A stretch of 37,654 bases of DNA from Dehalococcoidia bacterium (GTDB lineage Bacteria; Chloroflexota; Dehalococcoidia; GIF9; AB-539-J10), in contig JAUWQY010000013.1 in the NCBI GenBank assembly GCA_030610855.1, positions 1 to 37,654 on the forward strand, given 5' to 3'. The notes beneath the pieces are model-generated. The model ran no database searches and had not been told where the DNA came from. It saw nothing but the letters and a program-made list of their open reading frames with translations. Of this stretch, positions 17,249-23,794 are shown piece after piece. Each line of letters opens with the position of its first letter. Position 1 is the stretch's first letter. The position numbers and the translations under genes are program-made.

Positions 17249-18697
17249 GTGGCCGGGTCAAGAGGTAGTTATTACTCAGCCCTTAAGCGGATAACCAAAG
17301 CTGCCAATTCAGCTTTTGGTCTGAGAAAGATCTGCAATTCCATAGCCAAAAGCACGGCCAAGGCAATGCAGGCGAATGGCTGCCGCATCCTATCGCTGAA
17401 TTCCCGGAAGGAATACCTCATCACTGTAGGCACGTATGGCTTGAGCGACCTTTACCTGAAGAAGGGGCCTCTTGATGCTCGCAAAAGCCTTCCCGATATC
17501 CTTGAGGGAAGAGCGGTCTTCATTGCCGATGCTACCGAGGATGAAAGGGTTCAGCATCCTCAAGTAGCGCTGGCACAGGGAATATCCTCTATTCTCGGGG
17601 TTCCCATACTCGAAAAGGGGCAGGCTATCGGGGAGATCCGAATCTACACTCGTGAGCACCGCCAGTTCTCGGAAGCTGATAAGAGCTTCCTCTTCAGTGT
17701 TGCTGATGTGTGCGCTGTCATCTTCGAGAGAGCAGAGCTTCATCAGTTATTGGAGCAAGGCTATAAGACAAGTGAGAGACGAGGCAAACCGTCTCAACTA
17801 TCTCCGCTACCCACTACTACGCTGCGGCCGGCGGGTTTCGCTCATCCTAGCGAGGAGGATTTTGCCAAGCTTTTGGACTTCTACTGCATTGAATGGCTTT
17901 ATGAGCCTCGCTCCTTTCCTCTCAGGTGGGAAGGCGGCAAGATAGCGGAGATGTTCACTCCCGATTTCTATCTGCCGGAGCTAGACATCTATGTTGAACT
18001 CACTACGCTGAAACAGAATCTGATAACCGAGAAGAATCGCAAACTGCGGCAGGTCAGAGAACTTTACCCGGAAGTCAATGTAAGGCTTCTGACCAAGAGT
18101 GATTTTCTCAGGCTGCTGGCCAAGTATGGCTATGGCCCTCTAGGCGAAGCAAAAGTAGAGGGAGTCGATCGAGTTTTGTACAACCAGGCCCGAATTCAGC
18201 GAAGGATAAGAACATTGGCCAGGCACATTTCCCGCGATTACGCGGGTGAGCGATTGGTGCTGGTAGGCATCTTGAAGGGCGTTATCTGCTTCATGGCTGA
18301 CCTGATGCAGCACCTCTCTCTTCCGGTTACTCTGGACTTCATGGCTATCTCATACTATGGTAGTGACGGTCAAGTGGTCAAGATAACCAAAGACCTTGAT
18401 AGCAGCATAACAGGGCAGCATGTTCTGATGGTTGAGGATATCGTAGATACTGGCATGACATTGAACTACGTTCTCGACCATCTCTCTGCTCACAATCCTG
18501 CTAGTCTTCGTGTTTGCGCCCTGCTTGACAAGAGAGCACGTCGATTGATAGATGTTCCTCTTGATTACGTCGGCTTTGAAACTCCCGATGAGTTTGTCGT
18601 GGGTTACGGATTAGATTACAGGGGAGAATACCGCAATTTGCCCTTCATTGGCATCCTCCGCCCCGGGTTAACCAAAGGCGAAGAGCTACAGGAGTAA
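17249..18697 (+). CDS. Fusion: GAF domain - restriction-endonuclease-like domain - hypoxanthine phosphoribosyltransferase
   Basis: A 482-residue protein with three parts. Residues about 15-165 look like a GAF sensor domain (SILGVPILEKGQAIGEIRIYT). Residues about 200-290 resemble a PD-(D/E)XK nuclease-like fold: an N-terminal helix with Glu202/Glu203, PDFYLPELDIYVELT with Asp239 and Glu250, a basic helix, then VNVRLLTKSDF. The usual catalytic Lys two residues after the Glu is Thr252, so activity may be lost or use a nearby Lys. Residues about 305-478 are a complete HPRT: LKGV at 342-345, the PRPP loop EDIVDTGMT at 396-404, DKRARR and VGYGLDY. HPRT salvages hypoxanthine and guanine with PRPP. 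GTG start, 12 bases after nrdJ. The HPRT call is firm; the nuclease-like call is inference. Confidence 0.85.
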   Translation: MAGSRGSYYSALKRITKAANSAFGLRKICNSIAKSTAKAMQANGCRILSLNSRKEYLITVGTYGLSDLYLKKGPLDARKSLPDILEGRAVFIADATEDERVQHPQVALAQGISSILGVPILEKGQAIGEIRIYTREHRQFSEADKSFLFSVADVCAVIFERAELHQLLEQGYKTSERRGKPSQLSPLPTTTLRPAGFAHPSEEDFAKLLDFYCIEWLYEPRSFPLRWEGGKIAEMFTPDFYLPELDIYVELTTLKQNLITEKNRKLRQVRELYPEVNVRLLTKSDFLRLLAKYGYGPLGEAKVEGVDRVLYNQARIQRRIRTLARHISRDYAGERLVLVGILKGVICFMADLMQHLSLPVTLDFMAISYYGSDGQVVKITKDLDSSITGQHVLMVEDIVDTGMTLNYVLDHLSAHNPASLRVCALLDKRARRLIDVPLDYVGFETPDEFVVGYGLDYRGEYRNLPFIGILRPGLTKGEELQE

Positions 18698-18770: not shown

Positions 18771-18938
18771 CAACAAGAAACTGCCCCAAGTAACTTCCCT
18801 GTCCTTGGCTTTCCACCCACCTGCCTTTCTGCTTCCACTTACCTTGCGCCGGGCCTCTTACCTCCCAGCACCTTTCAGCTTCCACCTACTCGGCGGCTAG
18901 CTCCTCACTTACCAAGTTGTCGTTCGGTTACTTGGGAC
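18771..18938 (-). ncRNA. Candidate structured non-coding RNA
   Basis: Downstream of a consensus minus-strand promoter (18973-18945) the predicted transcript begins near 18938. A perfect 10-bp long-range helix follows: CCCAAGTAAC (transcript 18936-18927) pairs with GTTACTTGGG (18794-18785). A nested CTTGG/CCAAG pairing lies inside. After the closing helix comes a T-rich TTTCTTGTT. The interior is purine-rich with two related stretches, TGGAAGCTGAAAGG and TGGAAGCAGAAAGG. No signature of SRP RNA, RNase P RNA, tmRNA or 6S RNA is seen. It points into the 3' end of the HPRT fusion gene. Confidence 0.4.
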
Positions 18939-18944
18939 ACTGCT

Positions 18945-18973
18945 ATAGTAGCACATCCCTGGGATCTTGTCAA
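18945..18973 (-). promoter_or_regulatory. Minus-strand promoter upstream of the candidate ncRNA
   Basis: TTGACA at 18973-18968 and TACTAT at 18950-18945 with a 17-base spacer. No protein-coding gene lies downstream on this strand before the convergent HPRT fusion, which suggests that the product is an RNA. Confidence 0.6.
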
Positions 18974-18980
18974 GTGGTTG

Positions 18981-19160
18981 TGCTCGTTCAGGTGATTAGT
19001 GACACTTCTTTTTTGTCACTGCGAGGAGCGAGATTCCTCAGCTGCGGTTCGGAACAGGCTCCGCAATCTCTAGGCGGGGTTCCTCAGTCGAGCTATAGCA
19101 GGCTCCGGCTTCGCGATGAGATTGCCACGCCCCGACTTGTCGGGGCTCGCAACGACACGG
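18981..19160 (+). repeat. Dispersed repeat, copy 2 (long form)
   Basis: The first 123 bases match copy 1 (234-356, opposite strand) at about 93%. The unit continues to TCGCAACGACACGG, so the ends are inverted (TGTCACTGCGAG ... CTCGCAACGACA). An internal hairpin CCCCGAC/GTCGGGG lies at about 19129-19144. The corresponding part of copy 3 has CCCGAT/ATCGGG, a paired change that keeps the stem. Confidence 0.85.
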
Positions 19161-19237
19161 AAGGGTATTACCCAATGTTACAAGCACATGAAGTGTCGCC
19201 CATCTATCTGAACCAGATCAGTGGTTGTGCTGGCTGA

Positions 19238-19403
19238 CTACATGAGTAATAGCTGTGGATATGTTTTGGCGATTTCGTTTTCAATATACTCTATAGGAGC
19301 GAGATAGCCAAGGGATTGGTGTGGCCGGTTGAAATTGCACTCAACAAGGCATTCGGTCAGGCGGAGATGAACGAATCCGCTGATAGGAGCTGAGGCCCGA
19401 CTC
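19238..19403 (-). pseudogene. C-terminal remnant of an IS3/IS481-type transposase
   Basis: Read on the minus strand, about 50 codons ending at TAG (19240-19238) encode ECNFNRPHQSLGYLAPIEYI. This is the hallmark C-terminal end of rve-type integrase/transposases (usual form YNxxRPHQSLGxxTPxEY). The DDE-bearing N-terminal portion is missing, and no inverted repeats are evident. It lies between a dispersed repeat and the 4-hydroxybutyryl-CoA dehydratase-like gene, marking past insertion activity. Confidence 0.8.
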
Positions 19404-19471
19404 TTGTGCGAAACCACAATAGTAAGCTGATACGCCAGAAAATCCTGCAGGTTCCTGGAAAAGCTTGCCTG

Positions 19472-21004
19472 TTACTGCGTGGAAGCGTCGGCGGCCATCT
19501 TGCCCGGGTGGGTCATCGTTCTGCTCAGGGCATCATGGTCGCCGCCGCTCATGCCGGCAATATGCTTGACCAGTTTCTTCCTGGACTCGATGTCATACTG
19601 CGTTGTGATGGCGATTTGCTCCATGATAGGTGAGCCGCCACCATGGTAACTGCCGATGTTGTATATGCCTCCGCTGGCCGAGCAGAGGACATCGCCCAAA
19701 TAGCGCCATAACTGCGCCTGGTCCTCGACTGGCATGTTGGGATTGCGCTTTGTGTATTTGAGGAGCAGGTCACGGGTCTCCGGGTTCAGGAAATCGTTCT
19801 CATGGGGGAAGGTGGCCATCACGCCACCGGCGATATCGCAGAGCATCTCCGCTTCACGATAGACCGCCTCACCCGTGAGGCAGCGACCGACATTGCAGTA
19901 AATCGAATTGGGTATGTAGGAACCGGGGCCGTAGGGCACGAATCCTATTCCGGGTATGTAGACCTCGGGCTTGCCGAGGGCGGATGCTGTGTACCCGGCC
20001 GCATAACCGAGTTCAGTCGTCATGATGATCTCGGCCAGCTTCTCCCTGACGTGAGGTGTCTTGTGGATGTTGTTCACCTCTGCGGCAAGCGCCGCGGTTC
20101 CCAGGATTATGTCTCCGATAGCCGGCTTGCAGCCGGAATAGGAATGGCGATGAAACAGGGCAAACAGGAGCGCCAGCGCGCCGCCGTGTTGACATTCGCC
20201 CGCGAGGAAGACCCTTTCCCAGGGTACGAAGCAGTTATCAAATATCAGATAAGAATCTGTAGCGCCAGGTTGAAAGCCGCGCCTGAAGTGTTCCCTGGGC
20301 CTGAGATTATGGATGGTGACTATCTGTTTCAGTCCTTCCCAGTCACCAGGGATGGCGAAGGCGACGGCGTAGTCCTTGTCCTCCGGTCGCAGAGCGCGTG
20401 TCGGCACCACCAGCACCTCGTCGGCAACCGATGCCTCGGAGATGTGGAGCTTGCAGCCGCTCACGATAATGCCATCACTGCGCCTCTCTTTGATCCGTAC
20501 ATAGGCATCGGGGTCCGGCTGGTCAGCGGGCCTCAGCAGTCTATCGCCCTTGACGTCCGTCTGAGCACAGCAGCCTACCAGGTCTTCGCTCTGGAAGCGC
20601 ATAAGCCACTTCCTGAAGTTCTCGTGGTACTCGGTTGCGCCATTGTTCATCTTGTCTGCTTCGTAGGACACGTTGTAGACGGCATTGGTGGCATCGATGC
20701 CCATACATCTCTGGATGCATCCGCCCACCTTCTGGCAGAGCATGCGGGTCATGTCTTGCTTCTTGTGCAGGTCATCGGTGTTCTGGTGGATGTGAGTGAA
20801 GCGGCTGATGCGCTCGCCGCTGAGATGGGAGATGGCGGTGCACAGGTCCTGGTTCTCCGGCTTGGCAGCTTCATCAAATGTCGTGCCGATCGTATTTATG
20901 CAGTCCATTTGTAGCTCGTCTGTGCGGTCGATGAGTTCGCCATCGAAGTAGACGTTTCGCCTCATCCTGGCGAGGCCCTGTATATACTGCTCTTTTGTCC
21001 TCAT
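19472..21004 (-). CDS. abfD: 4-hydroxybutyryl-CoA dehydratase / vinylacetyl-CoA isomerase family flavoprotein
   Basis: Homologue of AbfD, the FAD and [4Fe-4S] enzyme that dehydrates 4-hydroxybutyryl-CoA to crotonyl-CoA; the same fold serves 4-hydroxyphenylacetate 3-monooxygenases. The start is the ATG at 21004 (MRTKEQYIQG), preceded by AAGGAG, giving 510 residues. The four cluster ligands of clostridial AbfD (Cys99, Cys103, His292, Cys299) appear as Cys96 and Cys100 in CIQRC, and His285 and Cys292 in HRHSYSGC, with identical spacing; Tyr289 is also present. These are absent from simple monooxygenases, so the dehydratase call is favoured. No CoA-transferase or hydroxybutyrate dehydrogenase is adjacent; the gene is isolated in an accessory region. 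Confidence 0.85.
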   Translation of the reverse strand: MRTKEQYIQGLARMRRNVYFDGELIDRTDELQMDCINTIGTTFDEAAKPENQDLCTAISHLSGERISRFTHIHQNTDDLHKKQDMTRMLCQKVGGCIQRCMGIDATNAVYNVSYEADKMNNGATEYHENFRKWLMRFQSEDLVGCCAQTDVKGDRLLRPADQPDPDAYVRIKERRSDGIIVSGCKLHISEASVADEVLVVPTRALRPEDKDYAVAFAIPGDWEGLKQIVTIHNLRPREHFRRGFQPGATDSYLIFDNCFVPWERVFLAGECQHGGALALLFALFHRHSYSGCKPAIGDIILGTAALAAEVNNIHKTPHVREKLAEIIMTTELGYAAGYTASALGKPEVYIPGIGFVPYGPGSYIPNSIYCNVGRCLTGEAVYREAEMLCDIAGGVMATFPHENDFLNPETRDLLLKYTKRNPNMPVEDQAQLWRYLGDVLCSASGGIYNIGSYHGGGSPIMEQIAITTQYDIESRKKLVKHIAGMSGGDHDALSRTMTHPGKMAADASTQ

Positions 21005-21504
21005 TCTTCTCTCCTTGTTCAGTGGATAGCCAAAGTGACGCGGTCCCGGGTTGTCGTTGTTTAGCTTCCCCGGAATCCTGGTGCACAGTATAGCATCTCC
21101 TGCCCCCTCAGGCACTTTTCCGGCTTCTCTCGATTGTGCTGCAGTTGTGTCCTCATGCGGTACCGAAGTCAGGAAATCGGGCTACAGAGGCGGAGCACTG
21201 CTATCCCACGCCAGACCCTAACAACACGCTGATGAGCCGGGAGGCCCTCGGGTTAGGGGAAAGCGTTGCCTGATGCTGGGTTTCTGTTTTGTCTTAGAGC
21301 TGCCGTTATCTGTGCCTTGCTAGAATTCTTATCTATTGTCCGAGGCTTGCCTAGTTACAACGGATATCGCCACAGCGTTTCACGGTGTCAGGATAGCTAG
21401 ACCAGGCGCGCCACAAAGCGGGAGCCGAGGCCGGGCCTCGGCTCTCAGGCCGTTTCTCTTTACTGGCCCGGCCGCTCACCTAGGGTCCCGGACTGCTGTT
21501 AAGC
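21005..21504. other. Intergenic region with a degenerate recR-tail copy
   Basis: No gene is supported. Positions 21302-21351 match the recR 3' end (see separate repeat entry), and weaker similarity continues back to about 21225. A GC-rich stretch near 21425-21475 (CCGAGGCCGGGCCTCGG) can form a hairpin and may terminate transcription of the beta-helix genes. Confidence 0.5.
21302..21351 (-). repeat. Degenerate copy of the recR 3' end
   Basis: Fifty bases align without gaps to 25889-25938 with about 10 mismatches (about 80%), mostly transitions. The frame that in recR reads ALENRQEF followed by stop reads ASDNR, stop, EF here, so it is non-functional. It is in the same orientation as recR and lies on the far side of the two beta-helix genes. 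Confidence 0.75.
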
Positions 21505-23715
21505 TCATGAGCCTTTCCCCGACCACAAATCGCGGGTCCGATCCAGTATCTTCACAATCGGGTCGACAAAGCCCACCCTCACCATCGTTCTTAGACCCTC
21601 GTGTCGGGAGATTAAGTCGGCCAGGGGAGGACTGGTCTTATAGTAGAAAGCTACTAAGCCGGTGCCCAGCCTGTTAGGTAGTAGAACCGTGTCCCTGAAC
21701 TCCCTCAGGATGTCTATCTCCTCTGCTGTATCGGTACCATAGGCTGCGGTGGCGATGAAGCACCACAGAAGAAACTTGAAGTTGGCCGTTATGGAATAGT
21801 CGCCGTTGATAGTGATGGTGGTTGTGGGGGATCCGACATTGGCGATGGTATCCACATCTCCAGTCCACCTGTCGAAGCGATAGAGACCTTCTGACATCGC
21901 TATCAGTTCAACCTCCGTTCCAGCATCATAGGTGAAAGCTCCCTCGCCGGGTTTGAATACTGAACCCCCACCGGTGCTTGAGATTTCGATGGTATTTAGA
22001 TAAGCCGTAATCCAGGGGTCAAAGCGGACATCTGCGGAGACGGCACTTCCAGTGCCATCTGCAATCCTTCCGCTAACGGGATCGACCACGCCACCACTGG
22101 GCCCACTGGCATGGCCCCACCAGTTGTATGTGGCTTCAGCGATGACGGCACTGTCTTCGACGTAGAGCCCGTAATCGTCGTTCTGGGCGAGGCTGTTGAA
22201 GTTGACGAACACGGTGCTGTCGCCAACCACGGATTCCAGGTAGATTCCATAGCCATTCTTGTAGATCTTGTTATCCTCGACGGTTATGGCGCTGTCGTTC
22301 AGTACCCCATTCCGGCTTGTTACGCCGGCTATGGCACCAGTGAGGATGTTCTGCTTGATGGTGACCTCGCTTTCGTTGTCGATGGAAAACCATATGGCGA
22401 AGTCGCCACCGCCAGCATCGACGGTGAATCCAGCGTCATCCCCACCGAGTAAGACTATCTCAGCATCCAGCTCTATGCTGATAGAGCCGATAATGGTGGT
22501 CTCGTCAGCCCCGTCTGCCGACTGGAGGATCAGGGACTTGTCAATAATTAAGTCCTCCCCGTATACGCCCTTCGCTACCATAACGGTATCGCCGGGGTCT
22601 GCCGCATCAATGGCGTCCTGGATGAGGCCCGTCGGATCCACGCCCCAGGTCATCGGTTCTGTGCCGAGTTCGGCACCCAGCCACGGTGAGTAAAGAACCT
22701 TGCTGGAGACGGCATCGCCGCCACCGGGTCCCGCGCTGCTGGGTCCGCTGACATCTCCCCACCAGTTTACGGTGGCGTCCAGCGTCTCGCCTCCATTATT
22801 CCACACACCATACCGAGAGTTGCCGGCGATGTTGTTGAAATTGACGGCGATCCCATCAAGCTCTGTCTGCGTATCAAACACATAGATACCGATGGAGTTT
22901 CCGGTAAAGGTATTGCCTTCCACTTTCACGTCCCTAGAAAGGTCACGGCCGTAGTGCTCTTCGAAAGTTATGCCCGCACCCTTTGTATAACCAGTTACTG
23001 TGTTATTCTTGATTTCGGTGTTAAGGAATTGCCCGCTTATGCCCACGCCCCCCTGAGCGAAGTTCCTCACCAGGTTGCCTTGGATAAGGGAATCTTCGAG
23101 GTACCCGGTGATGCCAAACTCTGAGTTAACGATTTCGTTGTGCCTGAAGGTCGCCACTGTCGGGTCCAACGGCTGAAGGGCACCCGCGTTGATGCCGTAT
23201 TCCGCGTCTTCCACATAGCAGTACTCAACCGTTGCTCTCTGTGTGTAGGCCATGGTAATCCCGCCCTTACTGCAGTTCAACACGCGTACGTTTTTGACTG
23301 TGATATCGGTAACATCATCCATCCCGACAGGATTTGGAGCCACGATTGCGGTCCGTGCGTTGCGCACCGTCAAACCATCAACCACGACGACACGGTCGGC
23401 AGCGCTCACAATCTCGATCCCTGTTCCCTCATCTGGTTCAATAATCGTTTCATTGCCCCTGGGGGTCCTTGCGTCGACCCCGGCCTGTGCACCCTTTAAG
23501 GTCAACGACTTGTCAATGACAACATTCTCCTCGTATAACCCCACCGCCACCATGACAGTGTCGCCATCCGAGGCAGCATCAATGGCTGCCTGGATGGTGG
23601 GATAATCACCGGGCACGTCAATAATGCTGTTCTGTGCCGTCACCGGCGTCGGCGTCACCGCTCCCACGCTCAAGACCAACACCACTGCAAACAGGATACT
23701 GACTATCTTCTTCAC
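21505..23715 (-). CDS. Secreted parallel beta-helix protein with InlB-like repeat and CFI-box C-terminus
   Basis: The GTG at 23715 follows AAGGAGAAAAAG and begins a signal peptide (MKKIVSILFAVVLVLSVGA, cleavage after about residue 28), giving 736 residues. Two NosD-like right-handed beta-helix segments follow, each opening with PGDYPTIQAAIDAA- or LIQDAIDAADPGDT-type sequence and many N-rich turns (NNTVTGY, EGNTFTGN). Near residue 580-645 is a divergent InlB B-repeat (GGGSVFKPGEGAFTYDAG ... YRFDRWTGD). The last 85 residues are a CFI-box C-terminal domain starting CFIATAAYGT, thought to be a processing or sorting module. Probably a surface or extracellular protein that binds or modifies polysaccharide; no catalytic residues are identified. 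It is tandem with the next gene, 79 bases downstream of it, and their C-termini are close paralogues. Confidence 0.85.
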   Translation of the reverse strand: MKKIVSILFAVVLVLSVGAVTPTPVTAQNSIIDVPGDYPTIQAAIDAASDGDTVMVAVGLYEENVVIDKSLTLKGAQAGVDARTPRGNETIIEPDEGTGIEIVSAADRVVVVDGLTVRNARTAIVAPNPVGMDDVTDITVKNVRVLNCSKGGITMAYTQRATVEYCYVEDAEYGINAGALQPLDPTVATFRHNEIVNSEFGITGYLEDSLIQGNLVRNFAQGGVGISGQFLNTEIKNNTVTGYTKGAGITFEEHYGRDLSRDVKVEGNTFTGNSIGIYVFDTQTELDGIAVNFNNIAGNSRYGVWNNGGETLDATVNWWGDVSGPSSAGPGGGDAVSSKVLYSPWLGAELGTEPMTWGVDPTGLIQDAIDAADPGDTVMVAKGVYGEDLIIDKSLILQSADGADETTIIGSISIELDAEIVLLGGDDAGFTVDAGGGDFAIWFSIDNESEVTIKQNILTGAIAGVTSRNGVLNDSAITVEDNKIYKNGYGIYLESVVGDSTVFVNFNSLAQNDDYGLYVEDSAVIAEATYNWWGHASGPSGGVVDPVSGRIADGTGSAVSADVRFDPWITAYLNTIEISSTGGGSVFKPGEGAFTYDAGTEVELIAMSEGLYRFDRWTGDVDTIANVGSPTTTITINGDYSITANFKFLLWCFIATAAYGTDTAEEIDILREFRDTVLLPNRLGTGLVAFYYKTSPPLADLISRHEGLRTMVRVGFVDPIVKILDRTRDLWSGKGS

Positions 23716-23794
23716 CTTTTTCTCCTTCTCGGTTCTAGCACCGTTTCTCTTCACTCCGCCAGGGCTCACTCACTGTGCGGGGTTGCGGTTACAT

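Follow-up and report, generated by a model that had tools for sequence, protein, structure and literature searches.

We predict a family of structured non-coding RNAs that is found mainly in Dehalococcoidia and also in at least one other Chloroflexota group, and whose primary copy neighbors a gene for an unusual purine-salvage protein joining GAF, PD-(D/E)XK-like and HPRT domains (hereafter, the fusion protein). The family was recognized from an RNA of about 165 nt predicted on the minus strand (about 18938-18772) of a 37,654-nucleotide stretch of a Dehalococcoidia bacterium genome, the whole of which we analyzed and refer to as the window. Judged by comparative sequence evidence, it is nearly certain that this RNA family is real. 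That it is a new trans-acting family working with the fusion protein, which the RNA would probably bind as a regulator or a decoy, is in our assessment an evenly balanced proposition.

The element lies downstream of a sigma70-type promoter, TTGACA-17-TACTAT (18973-18945), with a 17-nt spacer and 10 of 12 matches to consensus (Table 1). The sequence-only reading of the window had described this promoter, a 10-bp helix closing a 132-base interior, a nested CTTGG/CCAAG pairing and a T-rich stretch (minus strand 18782-18770), and we found all of them in place; the 10-nt arms CCCAAGTAAC (18785-18794) and GTTACTTGGG (18927-18936), with 132 nt between them, are exact and extend to 13 nt (helix P1). 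From the sequence, the RNA is predicted to start at about 18938-18940 and to end at about 18772, within the T-tract. The same reading had judged a 10-bp match unlikely by chance. Taken alone such a match is not rare, as about 8 independent inverted matches of a perfect 10 bp, spaced 80-230 nt apart, occur in the 37.6-kb window; its placement at the predicted transcript ends does count, and we take the helix as real because of this placement and, above all, because it is conserved. When the RNA was folded as a single sequence, thermodynamics lent it no support (MFE -56.6 vs -57.3 for shuffles, z 0.17).

Table 1. Features of the predicted RNA and of the neighboring gene, in window coordinates
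Feature	Position	Strand	Evidence or remark
GAF + PD-(D/E)XK-like + HPRT fusion gene, 482 aa	17249-18697	+	Pfam/NCBIfam, predicted fold; convergent with RNA
T-rich tract directly after P1	18770-18782	-	T-tract after P1 in nearly all members
RNA gene, match to covariance model R1	18772-18940	-	178.4 bits, E 1.2e-39 (this copy is in the R1 training set; model E-values are rough)
P1 3' arm AGUUACUUGGGGC	18783-18795	-	Same covariation evidence as P1 5' arm
P2 3' arm GCCAAG	18804-18809	-	Pairing evidence from alignment
Module 2 GGUA-AGU-GGAA-GCA-GAAA	18826-18843	-	Module 1 repeated in direct orientation at 47-nt spacing
P4 hairpin GUGCUGGG...CCCGGCGC	18846-18871	-	90% of cells paired; two-sided changes at 4 of 8 pairs
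Module 1 AGUA-GGU-GGAA-GCU-GAAA	18873-18890	-	Putative loop-E/bulged-G-like hairpin, from sequence only
P2 5' arm CUUGGU	18911-18916, pairs with 18804-18809	-	The nested CTTGG/CCAAG pairing
GA of putative tandem purine mismatch above P1	18924-18925, partner GA 18796-18797	-	97-member comparison
P1 5' arm GUCCCAAGUAACC	18926-18938	-	98.9% of cells paired in alignment A1; class-wide covariation
-10 element TACTAT, TG just before	18945-18950	-	TA-rich -10 likewise placed in relatives
-35 element TTGACA	18968-18973	-	TTGACA-like at same position in nearly all members

Several other features lie on the far side of the promoter. The intergenic stretch at 19010-19170 is repeat-like (GCGAGGAGCGAGATTCCTCAG..., ACGCCCCGACTTGTCGGGGC) and resembles an interspersed repeat, and a short minus-strand ORF upstream of the RNA promoter (19238-19417) contains a transposase-like stretch, FNRPHQSLGYLAP, and is probably an insertion-sequence remnant. 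The gene for an HpaB-family protein (4-hydroxyphenylacetate hydroxylase / 4-hydroxybutyryl-CoA dehydratase type; 19475-21115) adjoins the RNA, an arrangement seen elsewhere in only a few close relatives. A 754-aa minus-strand ORF (21505-23769) possibly encodes a surface protein; its N-terminus is signal-like and it has beta-helix-like repeats.

A DNA search of 60 relatives yielded matches in 27, with the best similarity spanning approximately the promoter to just beyond the closing helix. In an alignment of 29 copies, conserved blocks (YCCRAGUAAYCRARC, GGAAGCUGAAAGGUGC, GCRCAAGGUARGYGGAAGC and GAGGUUACUYGGGRC) alternated with variable stretches; P1 (13 bp) was 98.9% paired, and P2 and P4 were changed on both sides, P2 (79% of cells paired) at 4 of its 6 pairs. 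The alignment-based structure score was above nearly all shuffles and above slid controls. When 97 class-wide members were aligned to R1, a procedure biased towards P1, all 13 P1 positions were canonically paired in about 90-100% of members and most of them varied in pair type (position 1, GC/GU/AU/CG; 2, CG/UA/UG/AU; 6, AU/GC/GU; 7, AU/GC; 9, UA/CG/GC; 10, AU/GU/GC/UA), with many compensatory changes. The sequence-only reading had staked its candidate on this helix being conserved in relatives with compensatory changes, and both were found. A scan for promoter and helix that was independent of R1 recovered helices of quite different sequence, e.g., UCUCGGGUGGGC/GGUCACCCGAGA. Immediately above P1, the first position was G.A or A.A in 90 of the 97 members and the next was mostly A.G, A.A or G.A, purine pairs that would form a tandem purine mismatch. 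An AGUA-stem-loop-stem-GAAA module, whose sequence suggests a loop-E/bulged-G-like fold, occurred in 33 of 102 members, compared with 2.7 ± 1.8 after interior shuffling; many members contain one or two such modules.

Family members are about 90-240 nt long. Nearly all copies inspected have a TTGACA-like promoter just 5' of P1 and T-rich DNA 3', and across the family the predicted start lies 0-3 nt ahead of a closing helix of 12-13 bp. The core lengths of long-type orthologues (144-154 nt) fall in every residue modulo 3, and even close orthologues differ in length by every residue modulo 3; we therefore rejected coding potential and consider the locus not to be peptide-coding. With promoter, helix and T-tract recurring in relatives and the helix covarying, the earlier proposal of a promoter-driven structured RNA is strongly supported, and helices kept by compensatory changes at a locus that appears not to code for protein point to a structured non-coding RNA.

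We compared the RNA with known families. Neither the window nor four distant members contained any Rfam 15 family at gathering score, tmRNA included, which agrees with the sequence-only reading, where the RNA could not be matched to SRP, RNase P, tmRNA or 6S RNA. Low-threshold Rfam matches (bxd_4, snoRNA and lncRNA models) were judged chance-like. The small SRP RNA (RF00169) and RNase P RNA (RF00010) models gave no covariance match to the RNA, and the corresponding RNAs were located elsewhere (SRP RNA at G000:C43, 72.8 bits; RNase P RNA at G000:C68, 297.6 bits). An assignment of GGUAAGAG to an RNase P specificity domain was dropped because the loop varies among relatives.

For 6S RNA (RF00013), with which the RNA shares a sigma70-type promoter of its own, a long helix closing the two ends, an elongated fold and a T-tract, the RNA was likewise below the Rfam cut-off; it differs from 6S RNA in sequence, size range and internal modules, and in its tie to the HPRT-fusion gene. 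It could nonetheless be a functional analogue or an extremely diverged relative of 6S RNA, abundant, elongated and binding RNA polymerase, with the HPRT neighborhood incidental. The strong promoter, MFE folds that are mostly unbranched and contain internal loops, and the class-wide presence all fit such a role. Rfam 6S was found in 94 of 400 Chloroflexota genomes, none of them among those sampled from the window's class, where 6S RNA has either been lost or become too diverged for the model, and in f116, a family outside the class, no genome has both the fusion and a 6S match. However, the RNA has no evident likeness to the 6S RNAs of the phylum, whether at its ends, in its size range or in its central bubble: in a comparison with L278-L280 by eye and by MFE fold, we did not see the 6S-type rod of about 180 nt in which conserved sequence flanks a large central bubble, the lengths here running from about 90 to 240 nt and the interior being different. 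In addition, the RNA and the fusion are jointly absent from four genomes of one genus, and genome G618 (f133) has a 6S RNA (80.7 bits) together with a probable diverged copy of our RNA, GCCUCAAG.../...GGGUUACUUGAGGC (only 13.8 bits), convergent with and directly after its fusion gene; we looked for a promoter at this candidate and saw none that was clear. We consider a 6S-like identity unlikely; together with the base-pairing sRNA reading discussed below, it is one of the two main rivals of our own.

Using R1, we found the RNA in 77 of the 84 genomes of the order, at 1-5 copies per genome; five are present in the genome of the window, on contigs C20 (the window), C61, C44, C16 and C73. Across the class, 76 of 393 genomes had an R1 match, which underestimates occurrence because R1 is tuned to one family. 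Only 3 matches came from a sequence-pattern scan across named genomes. Extra copies are located away from the fusion gene. Three tandem copies occur at L081 (G072:C18; 3182-3343, 3592-3752 and 3979-4140), each with a promoter-like site, and two tandem copies in each of G269 and G279. Having up to five diverged copies per genome, a purine-rich interior and a T-rich 3' end, the family might instead consist of base-pairing regulatory sRNAs, in which internal loops rich in purines would anneal to pyrimidine-rich stretches of mRNAs and the copies would serve different targets. This reading leaves the linkage to the fusion gene unexplained and sits poorly with conservation that is strongest in helices and modules, not in one exposed seed; we assign it a low probability. 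CsrB and RsmZ, which are protein-sponge RNAs, offer a precedent for a decoy acting through dosage. They resemble the present family in having several copies per genome, purine-rich sequence with GGA-containing loops and repeated hairpin modules; here, however, the neighbor is a PD-(D/E)XK-like-HPRT fusion and not CsrA, and the modules are AGUA/GAAA hairpins.

The fusion protein (about 460-520 aa, with GAF, PD-(D/E)XK-like middle and HPRT domains) is the only class-wide recurrent neighbor of the primary RNA copy. We assigned the middle domain by its motif pattern, weak library matches and the alpha-beta-beta-beta-alpha-beta order in a structure model of modest confidence (pLDDT 64). This nuclease-like domain has E-x-T in place of the usual E-x-K, and it may therefore be a binding domain, not a cutting one. 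The HPRT domain weakly resembles PyrR, and a fold search with the fusion protein returned only HPRT structures among the matches listed. Conservation is high in the middle domain, and proteins that match in the nuclease-like and HPRT part alone are widespread in Chloroflexota; many genomes also contain a second match to the fusion protein, probably a plain HPRT. An RNA gene that adjoins a gene for a nuclease-fold protein, and is present and absent jointly with it, might suggest that the RNA is a guide, inhibitor or substrate of this protein within a toxin-like, selfish or defense module. We regard this as very unlikely: inheritance is apparently vertical and class-wide, the catalytic K is apparently replaced, the RNA has no spacer-like variable segment, and the PADLOC defense library contained no convincing family for the fusion protein (best E 8e-4, partial).

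To what extent the RNA and the fusion travel together can be seen from their distribution. The fusion protein scored >300 bits in 145 of the 393 class genomes, and this set included 74 of the 76 RNA-positive genomes; on inspection, the remaining two (G104 and G242) proved to have the fusion gene next to the RNA, in diverged form or at a contig edge, so that all 76 carry the fusion (hypergeometric 3e-40 for co-occurrence, phylogeny ignored). Of 45 fusion loci from genomes that lacked a genome-wide R1 match, 29 had an R1 match within 1.2 kb of flanking sequence; a further 8 had a promoter-and-helix candidate, some of these being weaker. The RNA was present in 7/7 fusion genomes of family f16 and in 0/4 congeneric, ~99%-complete genomes having only plain HPRT. 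Because the R2 model had the f16 positives in its training set, it is informative solely where it finds nothing, and it might overlook very divergent copies. Counted within that genus, 4 complete fusion genomes have the RNA, and the 4 genomes without the fusion are also without the RNA. Outside the class, the nuclease-like and HPRT core occurs in several families; the RNA was found at 7/7 fetched fusion loci of f116 and at none of the fusion loci of f138, f124, f131, f153 and f141. No adjacent RNA was seen at fusion loci L175, L179, L194, L197, L198, L203, L205 and L227, and in family f19 the RNA and fusion are 4-8 kb apart or on separate contigs.

Adjacency of the primary copy to the fusion gene is kept while other neighbors, and even orientation, change. 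The RNA is convergent with the fusion gene in the window and in most families of the class, an arrangement that would suit a cis-acting antisense RNA or a terminator of the fusion gene, and the sequence-only reading had placed the RNA antisense to the end of this gene. That part of the reading does not hold. In the window the stop codon ends at 18697 and the RNA with its T-tract at about 18770, so the two do not overlap (the gap from RNA to gene is 75 nt); in several other families the RNA, or its best candidate, is found 3' of the fusion gene and in the same orientation, by R1 at L199, L200 and L219 and by the promoter-and-helix scan only at L201, L204, L206, L224 and L225; and unlinked copies exist in the same genome. 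Since orientation varies, the linkage is not explained by antisense pairing or by a fixed order of the genes, and we rejected a cis-antisense role as extremely improbable. The HPRT fusion is better described as a conserved, co-occurring neighbor.

That the RNA and the fusion are largely present or absent together in the genomes checked points to a two-part RNA-protein system, although the linkage could instead stem from shared regulation or slow rearrangement; we put a partnership between the two at about an even chance, and we infer transcription, binding and function of the RNA. In the mechanism we propose, the fusion protein would bind the RNA, most likely via its nuclease-like domain, and the RNA would control or scaffold the protein, setting its activity or availability, for example as a decoy of which extra copies raise the dose. 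The GAF and HPRT domains suggest a tie to nucleotide state. Bacterial Y RNAs, whose genes lie beside rsr/Ro60 and which have an end-to-end stem, are similar in that a structured RNA gene with such a stem adjoins a protein gene; they differ in that our RNA has no Rfam match and the neighboring protein is another. PyrR is a phosphoribosyltransferase-fold protein that binds RNA (the pyr attenuators), to which the weak PyrR similarity of the fusion HPRT domain bears some likeness, but here the RNA is a free-standing gene and not an mRNA leader. More tentatively, and with somewhat less than even confidence, we suggest a Chloroflexota ribonucleoprotein system in which a multi-copy RNA and a (GAF)-nuclease-fold-HPRT fusion couple purine-nucleotide state to an RNA-based regulator.

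We found no description of the RNA family in the literature (open papers only), and we consider the family and its pairing with the fusion protein to be apparently new, a claim that concerns these two and does not extend to a demonstrated mechanism. The RNA is spread over a bacterial class, yet it has no Rfam 15 entry and no published description that we found. Most orphan RNAs lack a partner that can be tested directly; the tie to a single odd fusion protein would supply one here.
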